A stretch of DNA of 64,000 nucleotides from Gammaproteobacteria bacterium. GTDB lineage: Bacteria; Pseudomonadota; Gammaproteobacteria; SZUA-152. Position numbers and translations under genes: made by a program. The stretch is taken from contig JAOUJW010000004.1 in assembly GCA_029882975.1 (NCBI GenBank), forward strand, positions 1 to 64,000. The letters are read 5' to 3'. This document shows positions 33,128-50,723 of this stretch, piece after piece (the stretch's first letter is position 1; each line of letters opens with the position of its first letter). The notes beneath the pieces were generated by a model. That model did no database searches and had not been told where the DNA came from. It saw only the letters and a list, made by a program, of their open reading frames with translations.

Positions 33128-33423
33128 TGCCGGCTCCGGTATATATAGGCGATGAAATCAGTGCAGCGGGTTTCCGTTTAGCAGGGGTACGGATTCGCAC
33201 GCCAAAAAGTGAGGACGTGGCTCAAACCCTGGCATGGGCCTGCGACAACGCATCCCTGGTGATGTTAAGTGAAACCATGGCGATGCAGCTGACGGAGGCA
33301 GAACTACAGGGCTATCTTAGCAGACTTTATCCGCCGGTTGTAATGTTGCCCGAAATTCGTTCTTTGCAAAGTGGGTTCGACTTGTTATCTCAGCTCAGAA
33401 GTCGTTTAGGAGTATTGGAATGA
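33127..33423 (+). CDS. V/A-type ATPase subunit F
   Basis: The 98-residue protein has the fold pattern of the central-stalk F subunit: IGDEISAAGFRLAGVR, then a helix, then LVMLSETMAMQL and VVMLPEIRS. It occupies the expected part of the operon. The start ATG overlaps the K stop and its end overlaps the E gene. Confidence 0.85.
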   Translation: MPAPVYIGDEISAAGFRLAGVRIRTPKSEDVAQTLAWACDNASLVMLSETMAMQLTEAELQGYLSRLYPPVVMLPEIRSLQSGFDLLSQLRSRLGVLE

Positions 33424-34073: not shown

Positions 34074-34089
34074 CTGGAAATGAGATTTT

Positions 34090-35943
34090 ATGATGGAACA
34101 CTTTGACTCTGGCAAAAGACATTCCACCGTAGAAAACAAAGCGACCCTTCGCTGGATCAGCGGTCCTGTGTTGCGGGCGAACACAGATCTACCCTTTCAT
34201 ATCAATGAGGCGGTTTATGTAGGGGAGCACCAAATACTGGGTGAAGTGATTCGACTCCACAATGATGAAATTGTCGTGCAGTTGTATGAGGATACCACCG
34301 GCTTACGTCCTGGTGATGCGCTTGTGGGAAGCGGCTCGCCGCTGGCTGTAAAACTAGGGCCGGGTTTGTTGGGGAATATCTATGATGGATTGTTGCGACC
34401 CCTTGGGAATACAAAGAGATTTGTACGCAGAGGCATGTACCGGCAAACCAGTTTACATTTTGAGTTTGAAGCCAGAGTCGGTTTGGGTGAGAAACTGCAA
34501 AATGGAGCCATATTTGGTATGACCAGGGAGACGGGACGATTTCCACAGCGCTGTTTGCTTCCACCTGATGTGTGCGGTGAAGTTGTCAGTATAGCAAAAG
34601 CCGGTTCCTATGCGGATGATGCCGAAGTTTGCCGAATAAAAAATGTGGATGGATTGGAGCATAGTGTTAGCATGAGTCACCTTTGGCCGATTCGTAAGCC
34701 CCGTCCAGTGACTAAGCGAATAGCCACTTGGGGTCCACTGTTTACCGGGCAAAGAATTTTGGATTCCATATTTCCACTGGCTTGTGGTGGGCGTGCCGCC
34801 ATGCCGGGAGGTTTCGGTACCGGCAAAACCGTATTACAGGAAACCCTCGCCAAATGGTGTGACGCCGACATTATCGTCTACGTCGGGTGCGGTGAGCGGG
34901 GTAATGAAATGGCCGGTGTGCTGGAGGATCTACCGAACTTGACAGACCCACGTACCGGTCGTTCATTGATGGAGCGTACGGTGATTATTGCCAATACATC
35001 CAATATGCCTGTCGCAGCTCGTGAAGCCAGTGTTTATACCGCGGTAACAGTCGCGGAATATTTTCGAGATCAGGGATTGCGGGTGGCGCTGATGGCAGAT
35101 TCCACCAGCCGTTGGGCGGAGGCACTAAGAGAGGTTTCCGGGCGCCTGGGTGAAATACCCAGTGAGTCGGGGTATCCGGCTTATCTCAGTAGCCGGCTGG
35201 CGGATTTTTATGAACGAGCGGCGCATGTGAGAGCATTGTGCGGAAAAGTGGGTTCGGTGACATTGATTGGAGCCGTCAGTCCCCCCTCCGGTGATTTTTC
35301 AGAGCCGGTAACCACCCACACTAAGCGCTACGTTAGAGTGTTTTGGGTGTTGGATTCGGTTCGTGCCCAATCGCGGTTTTACCCAGCCATTCATCCACTA
35401 CAGTCCTACTCCGGAGATGTGGAGGACCTGGAATCCTTTTGGACACAACACAATCATTCCCAGTGGTTGGTTCAAAGAAAGCAGTTTTTGACTTTGTTGG
35501 AGGAACAAACCCATTTGGAACGAATGGCGCGTATTGTGGGAGTCGACGCTCTGCCACCGCGCCAACAACATGTTCTCTTATGTGCCGATCTGGTCAATGA
35601 AGCTTTTTTACGTCAGTCCGCTTTTTCAGAAAAAGATCGTTATTGTTCGCCGGAACGACAAGTACTAATGATGCAGTTATTGAGTCGCTTCATTGAGCTT
35701 TCATCCAACGCGGTGCAACAGCAGGTGAGCATGGAGAGCATTCATTCTCTTCCTATATTGAGGCGCATTCGTCGAATGGGCGAGGAAATCGGAGAGGATG
35801 ATTTGCCGGGCTTTGGTCTCTTGAACAACGAAATGGAAAGGGTGTTTTCACAACTAATGAGTCGCAGGGAATACGACCGGGAGGTTGCCGGCGACAATAC
35901 TGTAAATACCCTGCCGCAACAGGAATCGTCCCATGAAGAGTGA
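34090..35943 (+). CDS. atpA: V/A-type ATPase catalytic subunit A
   Basis: The 617-residue catalytic subunit has P-loop GGFGTGKTVLQETL, the V/A-specific non-homologous insertion (about residues 115-200), catalytic-site elements VYVGCGERGNEMAGVL and MADSTSRWAEALREVSGRL, and SPPSGDFSEPVT. The insertion separates it from F-type beta. The P-loop Thr in GFGTGKT replaces the Cys seen in many homologues. Two adjacent ATG codons (34090, 34093) are possible starts. It overlaps the B gene by 11 bases. Confidence 0.96.
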   Translation: MMEHFDSGKRHSTVENKATLRWISGPVLRANTDLPFHINEAVYVGEHQILGEVIRLHNDEIVVQLYEDTTGLRPGDALVGSGSPLAVKLGPGLLGNIYDGLLRPLGNTKRFVRRGMYRQTSLHFEFEARVGLGEKLQNGAIFGMTRETGRFPQRCLLPPDVCGEVVSIAKAGSYADDAEVCRIKNVDGLEHSVSMSHLWPIRKPRPVTKRIATWGPLFTGQRILDSIFPLACGGRAAMPGGFGTGKTVLQETLAKWCDADIIVYVGCGERGNEMAGVLEDLPNLTDPRTGRSLMERTVIIANTSNMPVAAREASVYTAVTVAEYFRDQGLRVALMADSTSRWAEALREVSGRLGEIPSESGYPAYLSSRLADFYERAAHVRALCGKVGSVTLIGAVSPPSGDFSEPVTTHTKRYVRVFWVLDSVRAQSRFYPAIHPLQSYSGDVEDLESFWTQHNHSQWLVQRKQFLTLLEEQTHLERMARIVGVDALPPRQQHVLLCADLVNEAFLRQSAFSEKDRYCSPERQVLMMQLLSRFIELSSNAVQQQVSMESIHSLPILRRIRRMGEEIGEDDLPGFGLLNNEMERVFSQLMSRREYDREVAGDNTVNTLPQQESSHEE

Positions 35944-37336
35944 AGTGTACAGCAGCAATACAGTGGAAAAAATTGATGGGCCATTGTTGTTTCTGAAACG
36001 CACTGTGGATGCCGGATTGAATGATGCGGTAGAAGTGATCGGAGATGATGGTCACCGTCGTTTGGGAAGGGTGGCGTCCCTGGATCATGAGCACTTGATC
36101 ATAGAGGTTCTGGAGTCGACAACGGGTTTGTCCTTGCACAATATTCGGGTGCGGTTTGAAGGAGAGCCATTGCATTTTAATATTGGACCGGACATATTGG
36201 GGCGAGTTTTGGACGGGGTGGGTCGTCCCTTGGATCAGGGGCCTCCCATTTCCGCACAACAGAGATTGCGTATTGACGGCTTGCCAATCAATCCGGTGGC
36301 ACGCAGAAAACCGACGGATTTTATCGAAACCGGTATATCTTCCATCGATTTACTCAACAGTTTGGTTCGAGGACAAAAGTTACCGATTTTCTCCGCCAGC
36401 GGACTACCCCATGATCGTATGGCGACTCAGATAGCCCAATATGCCCGATTGCGAGGTGAGGCTGCCGGTAGGTTTGCTGTTATTTTTACCGCCATCGGTG
36501 TTTCTCATGATGTTTCGGATCAGTTTCGAAAATCTATGGAAAACAGCGGCGCATTGGAACGCACGGTGTTATTTCTAAATTTGGCGTCTGATTCCAGTAC
36601 CCAGAGGCTATTGGCGCCTCGTTATGCATTAACTGCCGCGGAGTATCTGGCATATTCCCTTGATATGCATGTTTTGGTCATTATGACCGACATGACTAAT
36701 TATTGTGAAGCACTGCGGGAAGTTTCCAGCAGTCATGGCGAAGTACCGGGCCGTAAGGGTTATCCGGGGTATATGTATTCGGATTTGGCGGCAATCTTCG
36801 AGCGGGCCGGTTGCATTAAGGGGATATCCGGTACGCTGACTCAATTACCGATTTTGACCATGCCGGCAGATGATATTACCCACCCTATACCGGATCTCAG
36901 CGGTTACATTACCGAAGGCCAAATTGTTTTGGATAGAGAACTGGATCGACGCAATGTATTTCCGCCGGTCAAGGTATTGCCCAGTTTGTCGCGTTTGATG
37001 AAAGATGGCACCGGTAAAGGTTTTACCCACGCCGATCATGGAGCTTTGGCCAATCAATTGTACGCTTCTTTTGCACGTTCGGTGCATGTGCGTTTGCTTG
37101 CCAGTGTGATGGGTGAAGAAGGTCTGTCCGATACCGATCGACTGTATTTGGCGTTTGGAGAACAGTTTGAGATGGAGTTTATCAAACAGGAACAAGCCCG
37201 GTCCCTGGAACAAAGTATGGATTTGGGTTGGCGTTTATTGCAGACCATCCCCATCACTGAATTAACCCGCTTGAGTGACTCGCAGATTGACCGGTATATC
37301 CGCGGCAGGGAGGCGCAACATGCCACAACGGGATAG
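35933..37336 (+). CDS. atpB: V/A-type ATPase regulatory subunit B
   Basis: The 467-residue non-catalytic nucleotide-binding subunit lacks a Walker A and instead has GQKLPIFSASGLPHDRMATQI, a B-subunit hallmark. Other typical segments are VIMTDMTNYCEALREVSS, GRKGYPGYMYSDLA and DITHPIPDLSGYITEGQI. Translation is probably coupled to subunit A (11-base overlap) and to D (17-base overlap). Confidence 0.96.
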   Translation: MKSEVYSSNTVEKIDGPLLFLKRTVDAGLNDAVEVIGDDGHRRLGRVASLDHEHLIIEVLESTTGLSLHNIRVRFEGEPLHFNIGPDILGRVLDGVGRPLDQGPPISAQQRLRIDGLPINPVARRKPTDFIETGISSIDLLNSLVRGQKLPIFSASGLPHDRMATQIAQYARLRGEAAGRFAVIFTAIGVSHDVSDQFRKSMENSGALERTVLFLNLASDSSTQRLLAPRYALTAAEYLAYSLDMHVLVIMTDMTNYCEALREVSSSHGEVPGRKGYPGYMYSDLAAIFERAGCIKGISGTLTQLPILTMPADDITHPIPDLSGYITEGQIVLDRELDRRNVFPPVKVLPSLSRLMKDGTGKGFTHADHGALANQLYASFARSVHVRLLASVMGEEGLSDTDRLYLAFGEQFEMEFIKQEQARSLEQSMDLGWRLLQTIPITELTRLSDSQIDRYIRGREAQHATTG

Positions 37337-37928
37337 AGCGGCGACCCTGTCGGAAGTCATGGAACTACGTCGTGAGCAGCAGGTTGTACTGGAGGCATAC
37401 GATTTTTTAGATGAAAAACGCTTACTATTGGCCGCTGAATTGCTGCGGCAAATGAAGCACTATGAACAATTACGTCAGCACTACGATATCAGCCGGGAGC
37501 AGGCGGAACTGGCATTGCTGCAATGTGTGAAGCGCCATGGCTTGCAGGGAACGGAGGTTTATCCCGCTGACTATTTGGAAGATGCCCGGGTTGAATTGGA
37601 CAGGTTGCCATTCATTGGTATAACTCTGACACAAACTCGTTTGCTATTATCCCAAAGGGATTACCAAAAGGCCCAAAATCATCTCTCACCTGAGGCGGAG
37701 CATTGTACCGAAGTCTTTACCCGGTTAGTGCATCAAGCTTGTGTTCTTGCGGGCGTTTCAGGGAACCTCTATCGTTTAATGCAGGAGTACAGTCGCACCG
37801 AACGTCGCGCCAGGGCGTTGGAAAATGTAATTATTCCGGAAATGAAACAAGGGTTGCGTGAACTGCTGGGTGCGCTGGAGGAACAGGAGCAGGAAGAAAT
37901 TGTCCGGGCGCATTTTTATCGGAACTAA
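37320..37928 (+). CDS. atpD: V/A-type ATPase rotor subunit D
   Basis: The 202-residue, mostly helical protein has long N- and C-terminal helices. The C-terminal RRARALENVIIPEMKQGLREL is typical of the D subunit (NALENVxIP). It forms the central rotor shaft with F. GGAGG precedes ATG 37320; the in-frame extension inside the B gene is rejected. It is the last gene of the ATPase set. Confidence 0.92.
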   Translation: MPQRDRAATLSEVMELRREQQVVLEAYDFLDEKRLLLAAELLRQMKHYEQLRQHYDISREQAELALLQCVKRHGLQGTEVYPADYLEDARVELDRLPFIGITLTQTRLLLSQRDYQKAQNHLSPEAEHCTEVFTRLVHQACVLAGVSGNLYRLMQEYSRTERRARALENVIIPEMKQGLRELLGALEEQEQEEIVRAHFYRN

Positions 37929-37972: not shown

Positions 37973-38084
37973 TTACAAATTGTAGGTTTGGTTTACACTT
38001 ATAATAGTGTGCATATGAGCAATCAATGTGCACAGTAGGGTTGTTATACTTGGCAAACCGATTTATTGAAGGGTGTGGTGTGTT

Positions 38085-38552
38085 ATGAGTACCCTGGTAC
38101 TCGGGATCGGCAACACATTACTGGCGGACGAAGGCGTCGGTGTTCATGCTGTGCGCTACCTGGAAAGTCTTCCCACTTGTCCGAAACATATTCATTGTGT
38201 GGATGGTGGAACCCTCAGTTTTACTTTGGCGGAAGCCGTAGCCACACACGAGCAACTCATTGTGCTCGATGCTGCGCAACTGCAGCAACAACCCGGTAAC
38301 CATAAAACATTCATAGGTGAAGAGATCGATCGATTTCTTAACCAATGCAGCCATCGTAGTGTTCATGATCTCAGCCTGCTGGATATGTTTGACGTGTTGC
38401 GGCTGACCAACCGAATGCCTGAAAAAAGAGCGTTAGTGGGAATTCAGCCTGCTGTCATTGACTGGAGCGAAAAATTGAGTGGGGTGCTGCAGGAGGCATT
38501 ACCCGCTGCGGTGAATTCGGTTATTAAACTGGTAAAGTATTGGCAGCAATAG
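38085..38552 (+). CDS. [NiFe] hydrogenase maturation protease (HyaD/HupD/HynD family)
   Basis: The 155-residue endopeptidase begins MSTLVLGIGNTLLADEGVGVH with the nickel-ligand Glu in ADEGVG. It has the Asp in CVDGGTLSF and the late His in SVHDLSLLDM. It trims the C-terminal peptide of the large subunit after nickel insertion; the expected substrate tail is present at the end of the gene at 42108. Start ATG 38085 is set by the MSTLVLGIGN motif. Confidence 0.93.
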   Translation: MSTLVLGIGNTLLADEGVGVHAVRYLESLPTCPKHIHCVDGGTLSFTLAEAVATHEQLIVLDAAQLQQQPGNHKTFIGEEIDRFLNQCSHRSVHDLSLLDMFDVLRLTNRMPEKRALVGIQPAVIDWSEKLSGVLQEALPAAVNSVIKLVKYWQQ

Positions 38553-38624: not shown

Positions 38625-39035
38625 ATGGCAACAACATACCCCCCCGGATTGACCATTCACGAGACCACCGTTCCCGTATATTCACCTTGGATTCAATCGT
38701 TGTTACAGGAGATTACTCGGGCATTGCAGTCGTTGCTGGATCTGCGAGTAACCCACTGTATTGACCTCACGCATTTACCACTAACACCAAATGATAGGCA
38801 GGTGCTGCAGCAAATTCTGGGCGAGGGTGAGGTGCGCGTGGATATTGGTGTGTTGGGTAAAACGGCCATTCTGGAAACGGCCGTATCCGGGGTATGGTGG
38901 GTGCGCCACTATGAGCCTGGCGGAGGTTTGGTATCAGAATTACTGGAAATGGCACTGGTACCGGAAATTGTCGAAACCCAACTTATGGATGTGCAGGAGT
39001 CATTAACGAAACTGCATTCTGGTGTTTGCAGTTAG
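38625..39035 (+). CDS. HupH/HyaF-like hydrogenase expression protein
   Basis: The 136-residue protein matches the C-terminal domain of HupH/HyaF: LPLTPNDRQVLQQILGEGEV, TAILETAVSGVWWVRHYEP, then LLEMALVPEI. Full HupH proteins are about 280 residues, so this is a short single-domain version. The family supports small-subunit or Fe-S assembly under oxygen. It precedes the small subunit gene by 45 bases. Confidence 0.85.
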   Translation: MATTYPPGLTIHETTVPVYSPWIQSLLQEITRALQSLLDLRVTHCIDLTHLPLTPNDRQVLQQILGEGEVRVDIGVLGKTAILETAVSGVWWVRHYEPGGGLVSELLEMALVPEIVETQLMDVQESLTKLHSGVCS

Positions 39036-39080: not shown

Positions 39081-40172
39081 ATGTCCAATCTCACCATAGC
39101 GGAAATTCTCCGGAATCAGGGTGTATCGCGTCGGGCTTTCTTGAAATTTTGTGTCACCATGGCCGGACTTATGTCTTTGCCTCCGAGTATGGCGCCGGCC
39201 ATTGCCAAAGCGTTAGGACAGACCAGAAGACCATCGGTTATTTGGTTGTCGTTTCAAGAATGCACTGGCTGTACCGAATCCCTAACCCGCTCTAACAAAC
39301 CTTCCGTGGAGAACCTGATTTTAAATGCAGTATCCCTGGATTACCACCATACTCTTCAAGCCGCTGCCGGTACGGCAGCAGAGCAAGCCAGAACCAAGGC
39401 CATGGCAGAGGCTTATGGAAAATATTTACTCATTGTTGATGGCGCCATACCCACCAAAGACGGCGGTGTGTATTCTACCATCGCCGGTATAACGAATATG
39501 CAAATGCTAAGTGAGGTGGCCGCCGGAGCCGCTGCCATCGTTGCAGTGGGAACCTGCGCCGCATTTGGCGGTTTGCCTCACGCAAGCCCGAATCCTACCG
39601 GGGCGGTACCGGTCACACATTTAGTAAAAAATAAGCCAATTATTAACGTGCCAGGTTGTCCTCCCATACCGGTAGTGATTACCGGGGTGTTGGCGCACTA
39701 TCTGACATTTGGAACCATACCGCCCTTGGATAAGTTGCATCGACCCATTTCTTTCTATGGTGATACCATCCACGACCGATGTTACCGGCGCCCCTTTTAC
39801 GATCAAGGGAAGTTTGCCAAGACCTTTGATGATGAGGGCGCCCGAAAAGGATGGTGTTTGTACGAGTTAGGCTGCCGTGGCCCGGTGACACACAATGCTT
39901 GCGCCACCAGCAAGTGGAACAATGGCGTTAGTTTTCCTATCCAATCCGGGCATCCCTGTTTAGGTTGCTCGGAACCGGATTTTTGGGACATGGGCAGATT
40001 TTACCAACCCTTGGCTCAGCCGGGTACACCGTTAAGCAAAATAGCGTTAGCTGCGGTGGCAGGTGGAGCGGCGATCGGCGGGGCCTATGGTGTTTATGAC
40101 CGCCACAAGCGCAACAAACATTTGCAGACACATGAAAAAGTGACGGTCGCAGCTTTGGAGGAAAAACCATGA
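39081..40172 (+). CDS. hynS: [NiFe] hydrogenase small subunit, Isp-type (HynS)
   Basis: The 363-residue precursor has a twin-arginine signal (SRRAFLKFCVTMAGLMSLPP). Fe-S ligands follow in SFQECTGCTESL, AVGTCAAFGGLP, NVPGCPPIP and a C-terminal cluster region (DRCYRRPFYDQGKF, CLYELGCRGP, HPCLGCSEPDFWD). After it comes a C-terminal membrane anchor (about 319-337, IALAAVAGGAAIGGAYGVY). It is exported with the large subunit and passes electrons from the active site to Isp1/Isp2. Its stop overlaps isp1. Confidence 0.96.
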   Translation: MSNLTIAEILRNQGVSRRAFLKFCVTMAGLMSLPPSMAPAIAKALGQTRRPSVIWLSFQECTGCTESLTRSNKPSVENLILNAVSLDYHHTLQAAAGTAAEQARTKAMAEAYGKYLLIVDGAIPTKDGGVYSTIAGITNMQMLSEVAAGAAAIVAVGTCAAFGGLPHASPNPTGAVPVTHLVKNKPIINVPGCPPIPVVITGVLAHYLTFGTIPPLDKLHRPISFYGDTIHDRCYRRPFYDQGKFAKTFDDEGARKGWCLYELGCRGPVTHNACATSKWNNGVSFPIQSGHPCLGCSEPDFWDMGRFYQPLAQPGTPLSKIALAAVAGGAAIGGAYGVYDRHKRNKHLQTHEKVTVAALEEKP

Positions 40173-40828
40173 GCGGACTTGAGTGGCTCATGTGGTTACG
40201 TGGACCAGGCCTAAAGTGGGCTTTAGTAATTTTTTTAGCTGGGCTGGTATACCGGGTCATTCGCATTATCAGCAGTGGTAAAAGTCGCGATTTGTCTGTG
40301 CCGCGCCAACCGTATCTTATGCAAGGCCTGTTATGCATTGTGAGACGTTCTATTTTTCATCCCGGCATGACCCACCGTGGATATTTTACTTTAATCAGTG
40401 GTTACACCTTTCATATAGGATTGTTGTTGGCCGTATTTTTTCTGCAGCAACACATCCTGGTTTTCAAAAGTATTTTGCACGTATCCTGGCCGGCATTGCC
40501 ACCGTTTGCTGTTGATGTGGCTACCTTGGTGAGTATAACCGCCCTGTTTGCCATTCTAATTCATCGAATATTGGATCCGGTGGTTCGCGCATTGACAAAT
40601 TATCAGGATATCCTGGCCTGGATTTTAACCGTGCTGCCACTGCTTACCGGGTTTGCCTTAATGCATCCTATGGGAATTTCCTATACCGCGGCCATGGTGT
40701 TGCATTTAGCCAGCGTTGAGATGCTTCTCGTTGTAATTCCTTTTACCAAATTGACCCATATGGTTACCTTGTTTGTATCGCGTTGGTATAACGGTGCCCT
40801 GGGTGGGTATAGGGGAGTAAAAACATGA
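40169..40828 (+). CDS. isp1: Isp1, NarI-like cytochrome b of the hydrogenase
   Basis: The 219-residue membrane protein has about five transmembrane helices. Candidate haem b His ligands lie in SGYTFHIGLL, ILIHRILDP, MVLHLASVEM and KLTHMVTLF, the NarI/DsrM pattern. It should connect the periplasmic hydrogenase to the quinone pool and to Isp2. It overlaps both neighbours by four bases. Confidence 0.92.
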   Translation: MSGLEWLMWLRGPGLKWALVIFLAGLVYRVIRIISSGKSRDLSVPRQPYLMQGLLCIVRRSIFHPGMTHRGYFTLISGYTFHIGLLLAVFFLQQHILVFKSILHVSWPALPPFAVDVATLVSITALFAILIHRILDPVVRALTNYQDILAWILTVLPLLTGFALMHPMGISYTAAMVLHLASVEMLLVVIPFTKLTHMVTLFVSRWYNGALGGYRGVKT

Positions 40829-42105
40829 ACACCAACCCGGCAGTTCATACTCTGATTGAACAAATAGACAGTCCCGTGGCCAGCTTCTTTAGCAGTTGCA
40901 CACACTGTGGTATGTGTGCCGATGCTTGTATGTTTTATACCGAAACTCAAAACCCACTGTATACCCCGATACGAAAACTGGAGTTGATGCGCAAGGTGTG
41001 GTGGCAGGAGTATACCTTTTGGGGGAAAGTGTTTAAGGCCTTGGGATTGAGTCGGGCGGTCAACGATGAGGATCTGCGGCGTTGGGAACCACTGGTTTAT
41101 GATAGTTGCACTTTGTGTGGTCGTTGCTCTCTGGTATGTCCCATGGGAAATGATATTGTCTATATGTTGCGAAAAATGCGAGAAGCAATGGCCGCATCAG
41201 GTTACGTCCCTTCAGATTTAAAACATAGTGTAAAAAATACCTTGGACAAGGGCAGCCCCATGGGCGTAACGCCACAAACTTTAAAAGCACAAGTGGTTCA
41301 CATAGAGCGGGAAACGGGTCGGTCCATTCCTCAGGATCAAAAGGGTGCGCAATACCTTTTATTGCTGTCTTCGGCTGAGGTAGCTCAGTTCCCGGAATTT
41401 CTGTCATCCGTAGCCTTGATATTCCAACGAGCAGGGGTGAGCTGGACCTTGAGCTCTACTTGTTTTGAAGCCACCAATGCTGCATTGCATATGGGTTCCA
41501 GTGATCTGGCGGCACAGATATTACAACGCATTGTGGCAGAGGCCGAGAGGCTGCAGGTGCAAACGGTGATAAGTCCGGAATGCGGTCATGCCTATATGGC
41601 TTTGCGTTGGGAGGGTCCCAATTTGTTGGGAAGATCCTTTCCTTTTGAGGTGAAACATATCCTGGAGGTTTTATCTCAGTTGCAAGACGAAGGTAAGTTG
41701 CTCACTCATACCAGGGAATCGGGGCGTTTGACTTTTCATGATCCTTGTCAGCTGGCACGCAGGGGAGGTATTAATCAGGAACCGCGTAAATTGTTGCAGC
41801 AGGTGGCGGAAAACTTTGTTGAAATGGAAGACCACGGTACTTTTAACTGGTGTTGCGGTGGCGGTGGTGGTGTGGGTGTCAATGAACGGGCGAAGACCTT
41901 GCGTTTGGTGGCTTTTAACCGTAAGCGAAAACAGTTGGAGCCGATGAATGTTGATAGAGTAGTAACTGCTTGTTCCAACTGCCGCAATATGTTGGAAGAT
42001 GGATTGGAGTACTATCACATGGACAACATACAAGTGACTGGCTTGACCGAAATTATCGCCGCTCAGATAAAACGCGACGACGTGACAGTAACACGTGGAG
42101 AGTAA
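40825..42105 (+). CDS. isp2: Isp2, HdrD-like Fe-S protein of the hydrogenase
   Basis: The 426-residue cytoplasmic protein has two [4Fe-4S] ferredoxin motifs (CTHCGMCADAC near residue 30 and CTLCGRCSLVCPMG near 95). Two CCG-type cysteine-rich regions follow (SPECGHAY, and NWCCGGGGGVGVN with TACSNCRNML), as in heterodisulfide reductase D and DsrK. Its partner is Isp1. The CCG site suggests disulfide or thiol-linked chemistry on the cytoplasmic side, consistent with proposals that Isp-type hydrogenases connect to sulfur metabolism. Confidence 0.93.
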   Translation: MNTNPAVHTLIEQIDSPVASFFSSCTHCGMCADACMFYTETQNPLYTPIRKLELMRKVWWQEYTFWGKVFKALGLSRAVNDEDLRRWEPLVYDSCTLCGRCSLVCPMGNDIVYMLRKMREAMAASGYVPSDLKHSVKNTLDKGSPMGVTPQTLKAQVVHIERETGRSIPQDQKGAQYLLLLSSAEVAQFPEFLSSVALIFQRAGVSWTLSSTCFEATNAALHMGSSDLAAQILQRIVAEAERLQVQTVISPECGHAYMALRWEGPNLLGRSFPFEVKHILEVLSQLQDEGKLLTHTRESGRLTFHDPCQLARRGGINQEPRKLLQQVAENFVEMEDHGTFNWCCGGGGGVGVNERAKTLRLVAFNRKRKQLEPMNVDRVVTACSNCRNMLEDGLEYYHMDNIQVTGLTEIIAAQIKRDDVTVTRGE

Positions 42106-42107
42106 CC

Positions 42108-43865
42108 ATGAGCGAACGTATAGTGGTGGACCCCATAACCCGAATTGAAGGTCACTTACGTATTGAAGCCCGCAGCGATGCGGGAACCATTACCGAGGCG
42201 TGGTCTTCCGGTACGATGGTTCGGGGTATTGAGATTATTCTGAAAGGAAGGGATCCGCGCGATGCCTGGGCTTTTACGCAACGGTTTTGCGGTGTGTGCA
42301 CTTTGGTACACGGTATGGCTTCTATTAGGGCAGTAGAAAATGCCTTAAACTATAGCATACCTGGAAATGCACAGCTGATACGTAACTTAATGATAGCTGC
42401 CCAGTTTGTGCACGATCATGTCATGCATTTCTATCATTTGCATGCCTTAGATTGGGTTGACGTGGTATCTGCCTTAAAAGCCGATCCCGCAGCCACTTCC
42501 AGTTTGGCGCAAACGGTCAGTCCGGCATACCCCAAATCCTCACCGGGATACTTTGCAGATACTCAGAAAACACTCAAAACTTTCGTGGAAAGTGGGCAAC
42601 TCGGCATATTTGCCAATGGTTATTGGGGCCATCCGGCGTACAAGTTACCGCCGGAAGCAAACCTGATGGCAGTGGCGCACTATCTGGAGGCCTTGCAGTG
42701 GCAGCGCAATGTGGTGCAATTGCATACGATCTTGGGTGGAAAAAATCCTCATCCCAATTTTGTTGTCGGCGGTTCACCCACCGCGATTAGTATTAATGCT
42801 CCTGTTGCAGACAGTGGCGAACTCGCCGGTGCGGATGCAACAGCGTTAAATCAAAACGGCCTACAGGAAATGCAAAATGTCATAGACAATATGCGCAGTT
42901 TTGTGGATCAGGTATATGTGCCCGATACTTTGGCAATTGCAGGTTTTTACAAAGACTGGGGTGCAATAGGGGAAGGGACGGGTAACTTTCTGTGTTATGG
43001 CGACTTTCCTTTGGGTGGCACGGATGAGCTGGACAAGTTGCTGATACCTCGCGGCGCCATTCTGAATCGAGATTTAACTACAGTGTATCCCGTGGACCTC
43101 AATGATACGGAACAGGTTCATGAATATGTCGCCAGGTCATGGTATGACTACAGTGCAGGTAAGGAAAAGCCCTTGCATCCTTATGTGGGAGAAACCCAGC
43201 TGAAATACGACGGGCCTATTCCCCCGTATGAATTTCTGGATACAGACAAATCCTATTCTTGGTTAAAGGCGCCTCGCTGGCGCGGTAAACCGATGGAGGT
43301 GGGGCCCCTGGCGCGGGTGTTGACGCTATATGCCACGGGACACGATGCCACACGGGAGTTGGTGAACCGGACCTTAAAAACATTAGACATTCCCGTGAGT
43401 GCCTTGTTTTCCACCCTGGGTCGAACGGCTGCACGTACCTTGGAAACCAAAATTATTGGAGATGCTATGCAATCCTGGTTGGATCAGCTGATATCAAATA
43501 TCAAAGGGGGAGATTTAAGAACCTTTAACGAACAATATTGGGACCCATCCACATGGCCGAGTGAAGCAAAGGGCGCGGGTTACACGGAAGCGCCCAGGGG
43601 TGCGTTGGCCCATTGGGTCGTAATCAAGGATGGTAAAATTGACAACTATCAAGCCGTGGTTCCCAGCACCTGGAACGCCGGTCCCAGAGATGCTTTGGGG
43701 CAGCCGGGTCCGTATGAAGCGGCTTTGGTTGGGCATAAGCTATACGATGTAAAGCAGCCATTGGAAATTCTACGCACAATACATAGTTTTGATCCGTGCA
43801 TTGCCTGTGCCGTACATATTAGTGATCCGCAAGGGCAGGAACTTATGCGGCTAAAGGTGATGTGA
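42108..43865 (+). CDS. hynL: [NiFe] hydrogenase large subunit, Isp-type (HynL)
   Basis: The 585-residue catalytic subunit begins MSERIVVDPITRIEGHLRIE. Nickel-iron ligands are C61 and C64 in RFCGVCTLVHG, and C564 and C567 in DPCIACAVH. A 15-residue tail (starting ISDPQG) after His570 is the expected protease substrate. Separation of small and large subunits by isp1 and isp2 is the defining Isp layout (group 1e). L1 has Phe where many enzymes have Ile (RxCGVC). Start 42108 is chosen by homology; upstream in-frame sequence lies inside isp2. Confidence 0.97.
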   Translation: MSERIVVDPITRIEGHLRIEARSDAGTITEAWSSGTMVRGIEIILKGRDPRDAWAFTQRFCGVCTLVHGMASIRAVENALNYSIPGNAQLIRNLMIAAQFVHDHVMHFYHLHALDWVDVVSALKADPAATSSLAQTVSPAYPKSSPGYFADTQKTLKTFVESGQLGIFANGYWGHPAYKLPPEANLMAVAHYLEALQWQRNVVQLHTILGGKNPHPNFVVGGSPTAISINAPVADSGELAGADATALNQNGLQEMQNVIDNMRSFVDQVYVPDTLAIAGFYKDWGAIGEGTGNFLCYGDFPLGGTDELDKLLIPRGAILNRDLTTVYPVDLNDTEQVHEYVARSWYDYSAGKEKPLHPYVGETQLKYDGPIPPYEFLDTDKSYSWLKAPRWRGKPMEVGPLARVLTLYATGHDATRELVNRTLKTLDIPVSALFSTLGRTAARTLETKIIGDAMQSWLDQLISNIKGGDLRTFNEQYWDPSTWPSEAKGAGYTEAPRGALAHWVVIKDGKIDNYQAVVPSTWNAGPRDALGQPGPYEAALVGHKLYDVKQPLEILRTIHSFDPCIACAVHISDPQGQELMRLKVM

Positions 43866-43882: not shown

Positions 43883-44158
43883 ATGGAAAATTGGAGAGTT
43901 ACCGGGTGGATTCGTAAACTCGTGGTGTTCATAAGCGTTGGAGTTTACAGTCCGGCGATTTGGGCACATGCGGGTGTACATGATATGAGTGTAGGGTTGA
44001 GTTCCTTGCGTGAAATTATACTGCAACGTTTAACTCACCCGGATTATCTATTGGGTTTGCTTGCTTCGCTATGTTTGTTGGCAACTGTTGCACAGGTATT
44101 TATGTTGCTGAGAAACGCAGGATTGCATGTAAACGAAACCGAGAAACGTGAGTCATAA
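43883..44158 (+). CDS. Small two-helix membrane protein in the hydrogenase operon
   Basis: The 91-residue protein has a hydrophobic N-terminal segment (about 11-29, ending PAIWAHAG, possibly a cleaved signal) and a second hydrophobic segment (about 55-77, LLGLLASLCLLATVAQVFMLL). AGGAG at 43873 fits ATG 43883 rather than the GTG upstream. It sits 17 bases after hynL. I do not recognise the family; its place suggests an accessory or membrane-partner role for the hydrogenase. Confidence 0.7.
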   Translation: MENWRVTGWIRKLVVFISVGVYSPAIWAHAGVHDMSVGLSSLREIILQRLTHPDYLLGLLASLCLLATVAQVFMLLRNAGLHVNETEKRES

Positions 44159-44176
44159 AACGATTGCGAGGTTGTT

Positions 44177-45121
44177 ATGCATACGAGTATTCCGCATCAT
44201 AGTCATCATCATTCAACCATTCACGATTACTTACTGGCTACCCGACCGCACTTTTTCATAGCGCCGCTTATGCCTTTGTTGTTAGGAACCGCTTTGGCGT
44301 ATCAACAATTGGGAACGATTAATGTTTCCGTGTTTTTGCTGGCCATACTGGCAGTTGTTTGTGTGAACGCTGCCGTCAATGTGTACAATGATGTTTGCGA
44401 TGAGATCAATGGTTCGGATCAGGCCAATAGAGAGTTTATTGCGCCTTTTACCGGTGGTTCCCGTGTGATTCAAGAACACATCCTCAGTCTGTCTCAAATG
44501 CAGTATTGGGCCGCGGCATTGCTTCTCACGGCCTGCGTGGTTGGGGGTATTTTGGTTTTTTACAAAGGAATCATTGTTTTGTTTTTTGGCCTGGCGGGTC
44601 TTTTGATTGGTTTGGGGCATTCCGACCCCAGGATCAATCTGGCAGGTCTGGGGCTAGGGGAGGTGGCCGTGGCAGTAGCCGTCGGCATACTTCCCGTGGT
44701 GGGAGCTGCATGGCTGCAAACAGGGCAATTTTCCGGGGAAATATTGCTACTGGCTGTCCCGGCAGGATTGTGGGTGGCGAATGTGCTATTGATCAATAGT
44801 ATACCGGATATGCAGGCGGATGCCGAACACGGTAAACGAACTTTAGCAGTGAGGTACGGGGTGAAGTTCAGTGCCAAATTGTATACGGCGTCAAATTTGC
44901 TGGCATTGACCTTTGTTCTTTTTGCTGTGGGGAACGGTTCCTTGCCCATAGTTGCGCTACTTTTCCCGGTGTTGTTGCTGCCATTAAGCTTTTATGTGTC
45001 CGCCTGTATTCGTTCCTGGTATGTCAAAGCCAAGTGCATGCCGGTCGCAATAAAGTCATCCATTGGAATAATGATTGTAAACCTGCTTTGGCTCACGTTC
45101 TGTGCCGCGAGTATGGTTTGA
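44177..45121 (+). CDS. UbiA-family prenyltransferase (MenA-like)
   Basis: The 314-residue membrane protein has about eight or nine helices and the two Asp-rich motifs of the family: NVYNDVCDEINGSD and SIPDMQADAEHGKRTLAVRYG. MenA-type enzymes prenylate dihydroxynaphthoate for menaquinone; haem O and other quinone enzymes share the fold. The His-rich N-terminus (HHSHHHSTIH) is unusual. Being inside a hydrogenase-cytochrome operon suggests supply of a particular quinone. Substrate not assignable. Confidence 0.85.
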   Translation: MHTSIPHHSHHHSTIHDYLLATRPHFFIAPLMPLLLGTALAYQQLGTINVSVFLLAILAVVCVNAAVNVYNDVCDEINGSDQANREFIAPFTGGSRVIQEHILSLSQMQYWAAALLLTACVVGGILVFYKGIIVLFFGLAGLLIGLGHSDPRINLAGLGLGEVAVAVAVGILPVVGAAWLQTGQFSGEILLLAVPAGLWVANVLLINSIPDMQADAEHGKRTLAVRYGVKFSAKLYTASNLLALTFVLFAVGNGSLPIVALLFPVLLLPLSFYVSACIRSWYVKAKCMPVAIKSSIGIMIVNLLWLTFCAASMV

Positions 45122-45140
45122 TGCTGAGTCCATCGGGAAA

Positions 45141-45902
45141 ATGTTGACTCTTTCGAAAATCAAAGGCCGAATTGTCTGCCTGCTCTTTGGCGCGGCAGCG
45201 ATGTTGATTATTGTAGTCGGAACACATCAGGTTATGGAATATACCAGTGCCAACGATTTTTGTTTGAATTGTCACGAGATGCAAACGGCTTATAAGGAGT
45301 ATGTGCAATCACCACATTATTCCAATCGCAGTGGTGTTGTGGCGGCGTGTCATCAGTGCCACTTGCCTCAGACTTATCCTGCCAAATTGTTGGCGAAGTT
45401 CTCCAAGATTACCGAGGTTTATTACCATATGTTAGGCCGTATCGATACAACGGAAAAATATGAAGGCAAACGTGCAGCCATGGCTGAAAAAGTCTGGTCG
45501 CAGTTGCGTCGCAACGGTTCGAAACCGTGTACTTTGTGCCATAATTATGAAAGCATGCTTGCCGCAAAACAGGGGTTACATGCTCGTAAAGCTCATGCAC
45601 GCGCCATGGACAGTGGCGGGGAAAAATCCTGCGTTGATTGTCATCGTGGAGTGGCTCACGGTCTGCCCAAAACCACGGATTCGGCCAGGAAAAATGGGAT
45701 AGCTGGCTTGTGTTTGAGCTGTCATCAACAGCGCCACTTGTTTTCGCCGTCTCACCCAACTGTGGAGACTATGGATTTGGTTAGCTGTCTTGCCTGCCAT
45801 AGGCAGATGAATCATGCGCGAGAAAATTTTAAACAGTTTATGCATACCAGCCACAGAGATTTGTTGGATTGTAAAGTTTGTCATGAGTCCGGTGTTAATT
45901 GA
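45141..45902 (+). CDS. NapC/NirT-like multihaem cytochrome c, seven CXXCH motifs
   Basis: The 253-residue protein has an N-terminal membrane anchor (about 10-29) and then seven haem c motifs: CLNCH, CHQCH, CTLCH, CVDCH, CLSCH, CLACH and CKVCH. The first four fit the NapC/NirT quinol dehydrogenase pattern; the last three form an added C-terminal triplet. It should pass electrons between the quinol pool and periplasmic partners. A GTG at 45102 would overlap ubiA; I prefer ATG 45141. It is followed by the c7-like gene after 15 bases. Confidence 0.88.
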   Translation: MLTLSKIKGRIVCLLFGAAAMLIIVVGTHQVMEYTSANDFCLNCHEMQTAYKEYVQSPHYSNRSGVVAACHQCHLPQTYPAKLLAKFSKITEVYYHMLGRIDTTEKYEGKRAAMAEKVWSQLRRNGSKPCTLCHNYESMLAAKQGLHARKAHARAMDSGGEKSCVDCHRGVAHGLPKTTDSARKNGIAGLCLSCHQQRHLFSPSHPTVETMDLVSCLACHRQMNHARENFKQFMHTSHRDLLDCKVCHESGVN

Positions 45903-45917
45903 GAAAAGGAGATTGCT

Positions 45918-46238
45918 ATGAAACAGCTTATCACCCTGCTGATGGTATCCGTTTTCTTCGCGTTCGGTTCTTCGGTAATTGCGGTACCTCAAGGTATGAA
46001 TGTGGAGTTTGTCAAAAGTCCAATGGGAAAAGTAACCTTTAAGGGTGACAGTCATGCGGGTAAAGGTATTACTTGCGAGAAATGCCATCCTGTCCTGTTC
46101 CAGATGAAAAAGGGTACTACACAAATTAAACTGACAGATCATGAAGCAGGTACGAAATTTTGTTTTTCTTGTCATAATGGCAAACCCGCTTTTGCCCCTA
46201 AAGACAATTGTAACAAGTGCCATCAGGCGGCAAAATAG
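45918..46238 (+). CDS. c7-type triheme cytochrome
   Basis: The 106-residue periplasmic protein has a cleavable signal (about residues 1-22, ending SSVIA) and three haem motifs CEKCH, CFSCH and CNKCH. The segment MGKVTFKGDSHAGKGITCEKCH is typical of c(7)-type triheme domains. It is a soluble electron shuttle, probably partner of the seven-haem cytochrome just upstream. AAAAGGAG precedes the ATG. Its stop is only two bases from the stop of the convergent kinase gene. Confidence 0.9.
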   Translation: MKQLITLLMVSVFFAFGSSVIAVPQGMNVEFVKSPMGKVTFKGDSHAGKGITCEKCHPVLFQMKKGTTQIKLTDHEAGTKFCFSCHNGKPAFAPKDNCNKCHQAAK

Positions 46239-46240
46239 AG

Positions 46241-48682
46241 CTACTGTAGTGTGACCGTTTGATTGGTTTTTGGGGTGGTGACTTTTTGGGGTTTTGCGAT
46301 GGGTAGGCGAACGCTGAAACAGCTGCCGGCTCCGAGTTGGCTGCTTACGGATATAGTGCCTTGCATCAGAGCAACGTAACTTTTACTGATTGTTAATCCC
46401 AAGCCGGTGCCATCATAGCGCCGGGAATCGCTGCCATCAATTTGCTGAAACGCTTCGAAAATGCGTTGTTGGTTTTCTTCGTCCATGCCAATACCGGTGT
46501 CGATGACTTCAATAAGTAATTCCCTGGGGCTTGCTTGGGCCAACAGGCAACGAATGGTTATGGTACCTTTTTCAGTGAATTTGATGGCATTGCTCACCAA
46601 GTTGAGCAATATTTGATGCAGCTTTACTCGGTCGCTGTACAAGGATTTTGGTGCATCTTGGATTTCGATGATGAGTTTAAGGTTCTTGACTCCGGCCATG
46701 GGTTCTACAGATTTTAATAACTCTTCCAGTAATGTTTGCAACTCAAAGGTTTCATTGTACAAACTGAGTTTGCCGGCTTCGACTTTGGACAAATTGAGAA
46801 TGTCGTTAATTAGTCCCAATAGGTGTTTGGCGCTGGAATACACCATAGCCAGTTGTCGGGATTGTTCCTCAGTCACCGGTCCGGTCATGCCATCTTGAAT
46901 AATTGCGGTAAAGCCGATAATGGAGTTTAGCGGCGTACGCAATTCATGGCTCACATTGGCAAGGAATTCGGATTTGGTTCGCGACGCCTCGGTCGCTTGG
47001 TCGCGGGCAACGATCAATTCCTGCGTGCGTTGATTTACCAGTTCTTCCAGGTTTTCCCGGTAGTTGCTCAGTTCTTTTTCGTTTCGCTTGCGTTCCGTAA
47101 TGTCAATAAAAGTTACAACCGCGCCGCTGATGTTTTTATCTTCATAAATTGGGAATGACCAATACTCCGCAGGAAAACACGTTCCGTCGCGATGCCACAG
47201 AACTTCTTTGTCGGAATGGGTACCTGTTCCCCGGCTCAGTGTTAAATAGATATGAGATTCTTTAAATGCAACAGCCCGACCGTTGGTGTCGCTATGGTGT
47301 GCCAATTGATGCATATATTGGCCAAGCAGTTGTTGCGTGGATTGAAACCCCAGTAGTTTAGCACATGCGGGGTTGGCAAAGGTACATAGCCCGTTGGTGT
47401 CTATCCCGTAGATGGCTTCTGCGGTTGAGTTCAATAATATTCGAACTCTCGCCTCGCTGTATTGTAAAGCGTCCTCCCGCTCCTTGATCGCCTGGCTCAT
47501 GGATTGTACGGAAGCGGCTAGGAAAGACAGCTCATCCTGTTCAGCATCTTTTAGGTTCAGGTCTACAGTATCCTTGCTTAGCGATTTAATGCTGTTGACC
47601 AGACTATCTACAGGGGAGGAGACAAAGCGGCGCAGAAAGAGATAACCGATCGGTGCCAATATAAACACAATAAAGAACACGGCCAGCCACATGGCTTTGG
47701 AAAACAGCTCGATAGTCGATGTCAGGGATTCGTTTTTGACTCCTATGGATAGCAATACAGTCTCACCGGAGTCCAATGGCAGCCGGGTGGAGCCGGTGAA
47801 GAAATTGTTAATATTTTCTGTATACCATTGCGGCGTTGTTTTTGTGGAAATGGTTAGCAACGGTATGTTGTGCTGTTCTGCGGTCTGCAGTCTTGGGTTG
47901 CCGCTGGATTCTCCACCAGGTAATTTAATGAAATACTCCAGTTTATATCTTTGCATGACACTGTTGAAAAATTCCTCATCCAGGGTGTCTACCAAGTGAA
48001 TCCAGCCGACGATTCCTCCCTGGTTAGATTGAGTAATGGGTGTCAAACTTTCAATATGCAGGGTATTGTTTGCAACAAACAAACGCGCACGGGGTTTAGA
48101 GGGTATACGAATGAGTTCAGATATAGTGATGGCGGAATTTGGGTACGAGGCGAGGGTAAATGTGCCGCTTTCTTTTTGTGTATGAAGAAATTTCAATTCA
48201 CCTCTGTCATAGCTTGAATGGTATAGATGGATGCCGGCGCCCTTGGTATGGTTGTCACCGCTGGAGGTTTTCGTTGCCAGGGTCACCAAGCCGGCATGCT
48301 CGTTTTGTATGAAAACATGTTCAATGTTATTTGATTGGATGAGTCGACCGCTTTCACGGGCGATGCGACTTTTTTCTACATCGAAAAGTATGGCCTGGTA
48401 GTTGTTGCGGTCTTCGTATTTGTTGATCATATTCATCGAAGCGATCAGCTCAGAACGAGAGGCAAAAATTGCGGCCACGTCTTTGGTTTGCTCCATGCGA
48501 TTGGCTATTTGTTCCTGCAGGGAAATATAGGCTTGAGTGATATATCGAGATGCGTTACTGCTATACAACTCCGTGAGCATGTATCGAAACAAAAGGCCAA
48601 TAAGCAAAAGGGATAGGAGCAAAGAGCCGGACCAAAACAATAGCAGTTTATTGTTAAGTTTGTTGAGGTTTAGTAGAGGCAT
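46241..48682 (-). CDS. Membrane PAS histidine kinase
   Basis: The 813-residue kinase has TM1 at about 12-32, a large periplasmic sensor (about 35-325, Cache-like), TM2 at about 328-350, a HAMP-like segment, a PAS domain (about 408-540) and a coiled coil. HisKA (phosphorylatable His in FLANVSHELRTPLN, near residue 572) and HATPase (NLVSNAIKFTEKG, DTGIGM, GTGLGL) follow. There is no receiver and no neighbouring response regulator, so the partner is elsewhere. It lies 29 bases after a binding-protein gene, as in LuxPQ- or TorTS-type sensing where a periplasmic protein is read by the kinase. Confidence 0.92.
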   Translation of the reverse strand: MPLLNLNKLNNKLLLFWSGSLLLSLLLIGLLFRYMLTELYSSNASRYITQAYISLQEQIANRMEQTKDVAAIFASRSELIASMNMINKYEDRNNYQAILFDVEKSRIARESGRLIQSNNIEHVFIQNEHAGLVTLATKTSSGDNHTKGAGIHLYHSSYDRGELKFLHTQKESGTFTLASYPNSAITISELIRIPSKPRARLFVANNTLHIESLTPITQSNQGGIVGWIHLVDTLDEEFFNSVMQRYKLEYFIKLPGGESSGNPRLQTAEQHNIPLLTISTKTTPQWYTENINNFFTGSTRLPLDSGETVLLSIGVKNESLTSTIELFSKAMWLAVFFIVFILAPIGYLFLRRFVSSPVDSLVNSIKSLSKDTVDLNLKDAEQDELSFLAASVQSMSQAIKEREDALQYSEARVRILLNSTAEAIYGIDTNGLCTFANPACAKLLGFQSTQQLLGQYMHQLAHHSDTNGRAVAFKESHIYLTLSRGTGTHSDKEVLWHRDGTCFPAEYWSFPIYEDKNISGAVVTFIDITERKRNEKELSNYRENLEELVNQRTQELIVARDQATEASRTKSEFLANVSHELRTPLNSIIGFTAIIQDGMTGPVTEEQSRQLAMVYSSAKHLLGLINDILNLSKVEAGKLSLYNETFELQTLLEELLKSVEPMAGVKNLKLIIEIQDAPKSLYSDRVKLHQILLNLVSNAIKFTEKGTITIRCLLAQASPRELLIEVIDTGIGMDEENQQRIFEAFQQIDGSDSRRYDGTGLGLTISKSYVALMQGTISVSSQLGAGSCFSVRLPIAKPQKVTTPKTNQTVTLQ

Positions 48683-48711: not shown

Positions 48712-49656
48712 TTAGAATATGGGTTTTACTTTATCCACATTGGATTTTTCCACCATGATCGAAGCGATGGGGATATGCTTGGGAACCGGCATCCCGTTTA
48801 ATATTCGCAGGGCAAATACGGCGCCCTCTTTGCCTCCCGTAGGGTAGGTAAAGGACGAGTCCTGTTCTCCTGCACGGATGGCTTGGCGGGCTTCTTCGAT
48901 ATAGTCGATACCTATGATGCAAATATTTTTTGTAGCGATACCCGCCTGTGACAATGCCATACGGGCACCGGTGGCCATGCTGTCACTGTGTGAGTAAATG
49001 GCATCAAACTGAATGTTTGAATGGATTATTTCTTCCATGGCTTGAATGGCGTCGGCACGCAAATAGTTTGCGGTTTTCTCTGCGACAATGTTTAATCCCG
49101 GGTAGGCCAACAGTCCGTTTTTAAATCCCAAACTGCGTTCTATCGTCGGAGTTGCCGTGGGGATTCCTCCCAGCATTATGATACGGCCCTTGCCTTTGAG
49201 CCGGGTGGCTATTCGTTTTGCCGCGAGCTCGCCAATGGCCATATTGTCCGGGCCAATAAACGTGGTGTAAAGGTCGCCGTTGATGCGCCGATCCAATAGA
49301 ATGACAGGAATCCCTTTTTTGTAGGTTTCTGCAACGATCGGTGTCAGGGCGTAGGCGTCTTTCGGGCTGGTAATCAAGAGGTCAATACCCTTCTTGACCA
49401 GGGTTTCAATATCCAATATTTGTTTTGCTGTTTGGCCCTGTGCGTCCGTCGCGATGAAGCGGATTTTGGAATGCTTTGCCAATTCTTGTTCCACATCTTT
49501 GACTTGTTGGATACGCCAGTCATTACTCATGGTGTCTTGGGCAAAACCAATGATGAATTGTTTTTCTGATGCTTGCAGTGGCCCGGTTATCAATCCGAGC
49601 GTTAGAATTTTCCATAAAATAATAATACGGATCAATACGTTAGCTGGCACGTCCAT
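48712..49656 (-). CDS. Type 1 periplasmic sugar-binding-like protein (copy 2)
   Basis: The 314-residue RbsB/LacI-fold binding protein has an N-terminal signal (through ITGPLQASE). It also has FIIGFAQDTMSNDWRIQQVK, DLLITSPKDA, GIPVILLDRR and YSHSDSMATGARMALSQAG. AGGA eight bases upstream supports ATG 49656 over a TTG 30 bases earlier. It is paralogous along its whole length to the protein at 49779 and has the same length. No transporter components accompany it. Confidence 0.9.
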   Translation of the reverse strand: MDVPANVLIRIIILWKILTLGLITGPLQASEKQFIIGFAQDTMSNDWRIQQVKDVEQELAKHSKIRFIATDAQGQTAKQILDIETLVKKGIDLLITSPKDAYALTPIVAETYKKGIPVILLDRRINGDLYTTFIGPDNMAIGELAAKRIATRLKGKGRIIMLGGIPTATPTIERSLGFKNGLLAYPGLNIVAEKTANYLRADAIQAMEEIIHSNIQFDAIYSHSDSMATGARMALSQAGIATKNICIIGIDYIEEARQAIRAGEQDSSFTYPTGGKEGAVFALRILNGMPVPKHIPIASIMVEKSNVDKVKPIF

Positions 49657-49778
49657 AGTTTCATCCTGAAGTCGGTTTTTGGCCAATTCTGCCGGGGGAC
49701 AGCGAACTTTGCAAAAAGCCGTCCATCATTAACTTTTGATTTCAGGCCGATACCGGCTTAAGTATAGAACAAGCTAAA

Positions 49779-50723
49779 TCAGAAAATGGGTTCAATAGAA
49801 TCCACGTTGGATTTGTCCACTATTACGGAGGGCAAGGCGACGTGCTTGGGTACTTTTTTACCGTTCAATATCTTTAAAGCAAATAGTGCCCCTTCTTTAC
49901 CCCCCGTGGGATAGGTGAATGTAGCGTCCTGTTCGCCGATGCGTATGGCTTGTCTGGCTTCCTTTATATAATCACCGCCGATAATCTGTTTACTGCTTGG
50001 TTTAATCCCGGCTTGAAGCAGCGCCATTCGAGCGCCGGTTGCCATGCTGTCGCTTTGGGCATAGATGGCGTCAAAGCGTACACCCGATTCAATGATGCCT
50101 TCCATAGCCTGTATTGCATCGGAGCGTTGATAGTTGGCGTATTTTTCAGCAACGATTTGTAAGCCTGGGAAAGCAATTAATCCGTTACGAAATCCTATGG
50201 CACGTTCCATTGCGGTGGTGGTCGTCGGAATCCCGCTCAACATTATGATTTTTCCCTTTCCGTTGAGTTTGTTGGCAAGCCGTCGTGCTGCTTTGACACC
50301 GATGGCGACATCGTCCGGGCCAATGAAAGTGGTGTAGTCTTCCGTGTTCACTTTGCGAGACAGCAAAATAACTGGAATTCCCTTGAGATAAGTTTTAGAG
50401 ATAATAGGCGCCAGCGACTGTGCGTCCCTTGGGCTGGTTATGAGCAGATCGATGCCTTCATTGACCAGGCTCTCTACATCCCGTATTTGTTGTTCGGTAT
50501 GCCCACCGGCATCTTTAACAATAAATTGTACATTGGGATGGGTTGCCAAAGCTTGCTTTACTTCATTTACCTGTCGTGCGCGCCAGTCAATACTCAAGGT
50601 ATCTTGAGCGAAGCCAACCACGAACTGCTTAGTCGTTGTCTTTCCTTCGGGTGCACTGTGGGCTATGTTGACATTTAATATTAGTAACAAAACAAAAGCG
50701 ATGCGGCAAAACCTACTGAACAC
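49779..50723 (-). CDS. Type 1 periplasmic sugar-binding-like protein (copy 1)
   Basis: The 314-residue paralogue of the protein at 48712 has a signal peptide ending near IAHSAPEG. Shared features include FVVGFAQDTLSIDWRARQV, LLITSPRDAQSLAPII, TTFIGPDDVAIG, FTYPTGGKEGALFALKILNG and the C-terminal DKSNVD. The GTG start has GGGAGAG about five bases upstream. It is the first gene of the binding protein, binding protein, kinase unit. RbsB-type proteins bind pentoses or autoinducer-2; the ligand is not assignable here. Confidence 0.9.
   Translation of the reverse strand: MFSRFCRIAFVLLLILNVNIAHSAPEGKTTTKQFVVGFAQDTLSIDWRARQVNEVKQALATHPNVQFIVKDAGGHTEQQIRDVESLVNEGIDLLITSPRDAQSLAPIISKTYLKGIPVILLSRKVNTEDYTTFIGPDDVAIGVKAARRLANKLNGKGKIIMLSGIPTTTTAMERAIGFRNGLIAFPGLQIVAEKYANYQRSDAIQAMEGIIESGVRFDAIYAQSDSMATGARMALLQAGIKPSSKQIIGGDYIKEARQAIRIGEQDATFTYPTGGKEGALFALKILNGKKVPKHVALPSVIVDKSNVDSIEPIF

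Follow-up and report, generated by a model that had tools for sequence, protein, structure and literature searches.

The window, by which we mean the whole 64,000-nucleotide stretch of DNA analysed here, encodes an Isp-type [NiFe] hydrogenase operon whose large-subunit gene, hynL, is followed on the same (+) strand by four further genes, coding for a 91-residue membrane protein, a UbiA-family prenyltransferase, a heptahaem NapC-like cytochrome and a triheme cytochrome c7. The features of the locus are:

38073..38552, + strand: maturation protease of the HyaD/HybD/HynD type (PF01750, 62.7 bits; TIGR00072, 121.5 bits)
38625..39035, + strand: HupH C-terminal-domain maturation protein (PF04809, 95.9 bits)
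39081..40172, + strand: HynS, [NiFe] small subunit (TIGR00391, 420.6 bits, over cut-off)
40169..40828, + strand: Isp1, membrane cytochrome-b-like protein, encoded between hynS and hynL (TmcC, 119.7 bits, and HmcE, 102.7 bits, both below cut-off)
40825..42105, + strand: Isp2, Fe-S/CCG heterodisulfide-reductase-like protein (CCG, 69.4 bits; Fer4_8, 44.6 bits; DsrK, 235.8 bits, below cut-off)
42108..43865, + strand: HynL, [NiFe] large subunit (PF00374, 773.9 bits; motifs RFCGVC and DPCIACAVH)
43883..44158, + strand: small membrane protein of 91 aa, a probable shortened HupE (its N terminus is signal-like and is followed by AHAGVHDM and a helix with HPDYLLGLL)
44177..45121, + strand: MenA/UBIAD1-like UbiA-family prenyltransferase (PF01040, 101.5 bits, over cut-off)
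45141..45902, + strand: heptahaem cytochrome with a membrane-anchored NapC/NrfH/CymA-type tetrahaem domain and a C-terminal three-haem domain (7 CXXCH)
45918..46238, + strand: periplasmic triheme c7 with a signal peptide, of the GSU1996 nanowire-domain type (3 CXXCH; TIGR04257, 63.1 bits, cut-off 40)
46241-48682, − strand: sensor kinase (813 aa, by sequence), convergent with the preceding genes

From the end of hynL onward the intergenic gaps measure 17, 18, 19 and 15 bases, a Shine-Dalgarno-like AAGGAG stands ahead of the genes for the small membrane protein and for c7, and a promoter and terminator scan found no site within these gaps, with counts near or below those of shuffled sequences. 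The run ends at 46238, where the convergent kinase gene begins on the opposite strand. Coordinates, strand, gene order, haem counts (7 and 3) and the 15-20-base spacing given in the initial annotation were all correct on re-reading and translation, and this spacing suggests that the four genes are co-expressed with those of the hydrogenase. Upstream of the sensor kinase gene lie two tandem, similar genes for periplasmic sugar-binding-like proteins (48712-49686 and 49779-50723, − strand), perhaps the sensory inputs of this 813-aa kinase.

The hydrogenase and the small membrane protein

The order hynS-isp1-isp2-hynL is that of Isp-type, or group 1e, hydrogenases and is shared, together with the maturation genes alongside, with the HydSL enzymes of Thiocapsa and Acidithiobacillus (PMC3102683, PMC7735108); in a tree of 41 HynL proteins, that of the window groups with others from Isp operons. 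By this resemblance, on which the group label rests, the enzyme appears to be group 1e-like. HynS carries a twin-arginine signal (RRAFLKF) and a hydrophobic C-terminal segment. Isp1 and Isp2 are said to confer, in Thiocapsa, an electron transfer required in vivo (PMC3102683), and in Acidithiobacillus a route through them to quinone is the accepted model (PMC7735108), group 1e hydrogenases being moreover tied to sulfur respiration (PMC7735108, PMC10892978). While the window HynL is about 70% identical to many gammaproteobacterial relatives, these Isp-type operons differ in what follows hynL, which is HupE or unrelated genes, and prenyltransferase and multihaem cytochromes in none of those inspected, the two further genomes described below aside.

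The small membrane protein noted in the initial annotation is present, but it does not look like a new component. It matches no family of its own. Full-length HupE occupies the same post-hynL slot at loci L111, L116, L117, L121, L124, L125, L135 and L093, and a HupE profile made from related operons matches the small proteins of this and the two other genomes, with an E-value of 1.4e-9 in one (G390) and weakly in the window (0.0012) and in the other (G101; 0.0015), at an hhalign probability of 92. The G390 homologue also scores 22.9 bits against HupE_UreJ, for which the cut-off is 23. The six helices and HxxxxxDH motif of the HupE/UreJ family are missing from the 91-residue protein, in which the motif reads HPDY and the similarity is N-terminal only; judged by profile and position, it is probably a shortened HupE.

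Between hypE and the gene for the hydrogenase maturation protease, the window also holds a V/A-type ATPase cluster (29559-37928), comprising subunits I, K, F, A, B and D (by Pfam) and three genes without assignment. In a genome of another family (G241, contig C2, L169/L170), a V-type ATPase cluster starts 8 bases after the hynL of an Isp hydrogenase, and the link between the two systems may thus recur.

Recurrence of the arrangement in two families

Among 369 gammaproteobacterial genomes, 41 encode a close HynL (E up to 1e-230) and 47 a member of the prenyltransferase family. Both occur in eleven, on different contigs in nine and as neighbours in two, the window genome and G101, which were also the only ones to show the prenyltransferase beside hynL among the 30 HynL loci fetched and viewed with flanks of 1.5 kb as far as the contig reached. 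A scan of named genomes with the prenyltransferase alone gave no match. With an Isp2 alignment it returned 46 loci, about 30 of them Isp-type, of which one (L109) had the prenyltransferase; this is the same contig as that of G101 (JAHECY010000016.1, Gammaproteobacteria isolate Ww183). The third case, G390, was found by a search within the order of G101. The module is accordingly known from three genomes in two families, G101 and G390 belonging to a different family than the window genome.

Relative to the window, the prenyltransferase is 48% identical in G101 and 46% in G390, and the heptahaem cytochrome 42% and 44%, respectively. No c7 lies beside the module in G101, and in G390 a c7 with 62% identity to that of the window occupies the same place, the order there being the end of HynL, the HupE-like small protein, a START/COQ10-RatA-type gene, prenyltransferase, heptahaem cytochrome and c7. 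The additional START-type gene (PF03364, 63.2 bits; L168, 647-1177) belongs to a family that includes the coenzyme-Q-binding COQ10.

The three module prenyltransferases fall into a single clade (97/91), recovered in 98% of bootstraps, and E. coli MenA stands elsewhere in the tree. The wider clade adds those of G167 and G617, the latter a close relative (344 bits) with no hydrogenase or NapC gene alongside on its short contig. Co-descent of the hydrogenase is only partly shown: the HynL proteins of the window and G101 pair in their tree (support 95), and the HynL of G390, a fragment of 122 aa, falls among five rows, two of them from genomes without the module, and so has no resolved place. No other Isp1 turned up in the genus and order to which the window genome belongs, and the hydrogenase operon accordingly seems to be patchy within this group.

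The module is real, conserved and rare. Its description as unusual in the initial annotation is borne out by its occurrence beside HynL in 2 of the 41 carriers, with G390 as a third case, and among the relatives inspected the genes do not all lie elsewhere, since the order recurs in G101 and G390. That four genes of unrelated function should merely have come to lie together is extremely improbable: the cases are only three, but the gaps in the window are all shorter than 20 bases and the order is kept over two families at 42-48% protein identity, so that its return in another family is beyond what chance would give. Short gaps, synteny in three genomes and a single prenyltransferase clade together support treating the four genes and the hydrogenase as one module. 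Our literature search found no published description of a hydrogenase, prenyltransferase and multihaem cytochromes so arranged; while the kinds of component were already known, what is new here is the combination of an Isp-type hydrogenase with a CymA-like exit and an orphan quinone prenyltransferase.

The multihaem cytochromes and the proposed electron outlet

In the heptahaem protein, the NapC/NirT N-terminal domain (PF03264, 185.9 bits, over cut-off) spans residues 10-177 and a Cytochrom_c3_2 domain residues 191-249. All 7 CXXCH motifs are conserved in G101 and G390, and the alignment of the three proteins shows the CXXCHxM of haem 1 in each, within a four-haem NapC domain. It shares with CymA, NapC and NrfH the N-terminal anchor, this tetrahaem domain and the haem-1 motif, and among solved structures the quinol dehydrogenase NrfH comes nearest to it; it differs from them in its extra C-terminal three-haem domain and in scoring below the cut-offs of the named subfamilies (NapC, 172.4 against 310.6 bits; TorC, 186.0 against 478.2; NrfH, 58.2 against 134.2). 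When the 369 gammaproteobacterial genomes were searched with a heptahaem profile, only the window genome (445 bits) and G101 (512 bits) gave full-length matches, all others scoring at most 203 bits and nearly all covering just the NapC half; including the separately found G390, the fused architecture thus looks specific to the module within this sample. The window genome has a separate, canonical four-haem NapC in an apparent nap operon on contig C17, and the heptahaem protein is therefore probably not a nitrate reductase partner.

The c7, with three CXXCH motifs and matches over cut-off to TIGR04257 and Pfam Cytochrome_C7 (PF14522; 49.3 bits), has its closest solved structures in 3ov0 (E 6.5e-30), 3oue and 1rwj and resembles the GSU1996-type proteins. 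In contrast to these it is a single-domain protein, and its only histidines outside the motifs are His46 and His75, which leaves one of the three haems without an evident distal His ligand; the c7 of G390 likewise has, by eye, only two such residues. The initial annotation was right in calling it a c7-like triheme cytochrome, but the protein appears to depart from a plain bis-histidine c7.

The reading we favour, tentatively and with a little less than even confidence, is that a quinol-oxidising exit has been added to an Isp-type hydrogenase operon; electrons would then run from H2 through quinone, heptahaem cytochrome and c7 to an acceptor. HynSL would oxidise H2 on the periplasmic side, as is usual for the family and as its Tat signal suggests, and Isp1 and Isp2 would pass the electrons into a membrane quinone, a step established for the Isp family. 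The UbiA-family enzyme would prenylate an aromatic head group and so top up or diversify that quinone, the heptahaem protein would oxidise the quinol at the haem closest to the membrane and conduct electrons along its seven haems, and c7 would ferry them over the periplasm. The direction of flow, the acceptor and a quinone dedicated to this path are what we infer. Against such an exit stand the missing c7 next to the module of G101 and the many Isp hydrogenases, the majority, that have no such module.

Electrons might also take a course like that in sulfate reducers, from HynSL directly to c7 and on through the heptahaem protein into quinone, or between c7 and Isp1/Isp2 as in Tmc and Hmc, which would reverse the usual flow through a NapC-like protein. 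The b-type membrane and Fe-S/CCG subunits, Isp1 and Isp2, do resemble TmcC/HmcE and DsrK/HmcF/TmcB of Desulfovibrio, whose complexes also work with c3-type cytochromes, and c7 is a member of the c3 superfamily, with which the periplasmic [NiFe] hydrogenases of that genus usually pair. The window differs in that the hydrogenase itself is part of the operon, alongside a prenyltransferase and a protein with a NapC domain, and in that the Tmc and Hmc models stay below cut-off. Given that Isp1/Isp2 already provide a membrane exit, that G101 has no neighbouring c7 and that NapC proteins normally oxidise quinol, we regard this wiring as decidedly unlikely.

As the destination of a quinol-oxidising path, an MtrA-MtrB conduit is the leading candidate. 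An MtrB/PioB-type porin is encoded in the window genome (394 bits), in G101 (two) and in G390 (partial, at the end of a contig), each time adjoined by a ten-haem MtrA-like gene and with more multihaem genes close by; these loci are likely outer-membrane electron conduits in all three module genomes. They comprise L208 (10425-14261, contig C3 of the window genome), L211, L212 and L213, with a dihaem cytochrome following the pair in three of them. The conduit genes lie elsewhere in the genome, none inside the operon, and a congener of the window organism (G375) has MtrB but no Isp1, so that MtrB is not tied to the module. The extracellular acceptor raised in the initial annotation gains from the porin and ten-haem pair in each module genome, but loses from its presence in this module-less congener.

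The same exit could instead end at a soluble, periplasmic acceptor, such as a sulfur compound, a nitrogen oxide or a peroxidase, with no outer-membrane conduit involved. This would agree with the lack of a conduit gene in the operon and with the link between group 1e and sulfur respiration (PMC7735108, PMC10892978), but none of the three modules includes a reductase gene and all three genomes have MtrB, which makes it improbable.

The prenyltransferase and its possible quinone

The prenyltransferase keeps both Asp-rich motifs of the UbiA superfamily, NDVCDEINGSD and DMQADAEHGKRTLAVR, which it shares in alignment with E. coli MenA, and should thus be catalytically able. Its best models and, in UBIAD1, its best solved relative also point to MenA/UBIAD1. 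It differs from MenA in scoring below every NCBIfam MenA cut-off (86.6 bits for TIGR00751, which requires 102.15, and likewise for each PRK06080 model), in standing outside the E. coli MenA clade and in coming from a genome that lacks menaquinone markers. Neither a MenB over cut-off nor any MqnA/D match was found in eleven genomes, namely that of the window, G101 and nine others, eight of which carry the prenyltransferase family; MenB and MqnA/D were the pathway markers covered. As the window genome is 99% complete, the usual DHNA route appears to be missing from it, barring a variant among the other Men genes, such as MenD, MenF, MenC and MenE.

Two assignments were rejected. A true MenA, or DHNA prenyltransferase, is contradicted by the cut-offs and by the absence of a menaquinone pathway from our searches; genuine menA genes adjoin menB in G205 and G254, where the neighbours were read, and the protein of G205 groups with E. 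coli MenA rather than with the module. A haem O synthase or 4-hydroxybenzoate UbiA is disfavoured by the genome's own UbiA on contig C9 (242.7 bits).

With no DHNA pathway found, the head group may be salvaged from outside or be non-canonical. Published work has animal UBIAD1 making menaquinone-4. Animals are not known to have a DHNA pathway of their own for this enzyme to draw on, and a UBIAD1-type enzyme can therefore work by salvage. Two readings remain for the window protein: a general role in the quinone chemistry of ubiquinone-only cells, or prenylation of a salvaged or unusual head group.

According to the first, the hydrogenase would draw on the ordinary ubiquinone pool and only the cytochromes would be tied to H2 oxidation, the prenyltransferase being a general orphan with a backup or side role, carried along with them. 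The breadth of the family (47 of 369 genomes), the missing menaquinone markers and the genome's own UbiA all speak for this, as do the neighbours of its relatives, one of which lies 19 bases before nqrA (G167) and another divergent from ubiD, hinting at a general quinone-chemistry role of the orphan family. Since MenA-like orphans are common in menaquinone-less gammaproteobacteria, away from hydrogenases, the enzyme may indeed serve the whole cell. Random carriage, however, does not explain why three genomes from two families have members of one clade in the slot between the HupE-like protein and the cytochromes, and the window genome has no MenA-like gene other than that of the module. We consider the ubiquinone pool a real possibility, if an unlikely one. 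The nqrA neighbour, belonging to a quinone-reducing complex, is also in keeping with the quinol-oxidising exit that we favour.

NapC-family proteins and metal reduction usually use low-potential quinones, for which reason a second quinone would be useful here and a dedicated low-potential one is plausible. The fullest form of the idea is that the operon makes its own, the orphan prenyltransferase acting on a salvaged or non-canonical head group in otherwise ubiquinone-only cells and thereby connecting H2, by way of heptahaem protein and c7, with an extracellular conduit; taken as a whole, this is unlikely.

If a quinol-oxidising exit is the right reading, the hydrogenase operon comes with a quinone-modifying enzyme as well as a periplasmic quinol exit, with the wiring from H2 to acceptor encoded at one site. 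The arrangement suggests that H2 electrons are given their own quinone-to-periplasm route in bacteria seemingly unable to make ordinary menaquinone, and a MenA-like enzyme in a genome without a menaquinone route is stranger than the initial annotation, which remarked on a quinone-synthesis-type gene in a hydrogenase operon, had supposed. It also offers a handle on the role of MenA-like orphan prenyltransferases in the many gammaproteobacteria without a menaquinone pathway, which becomes testable here because the enzyme is linked with a single donor and a single cytochrome pair. Such orphans are scattered over gammaproteobacteria in which neither MenB nor MqnA/D was detected, with examples at L035 (G167), L036 (G074), L038 and other loci.
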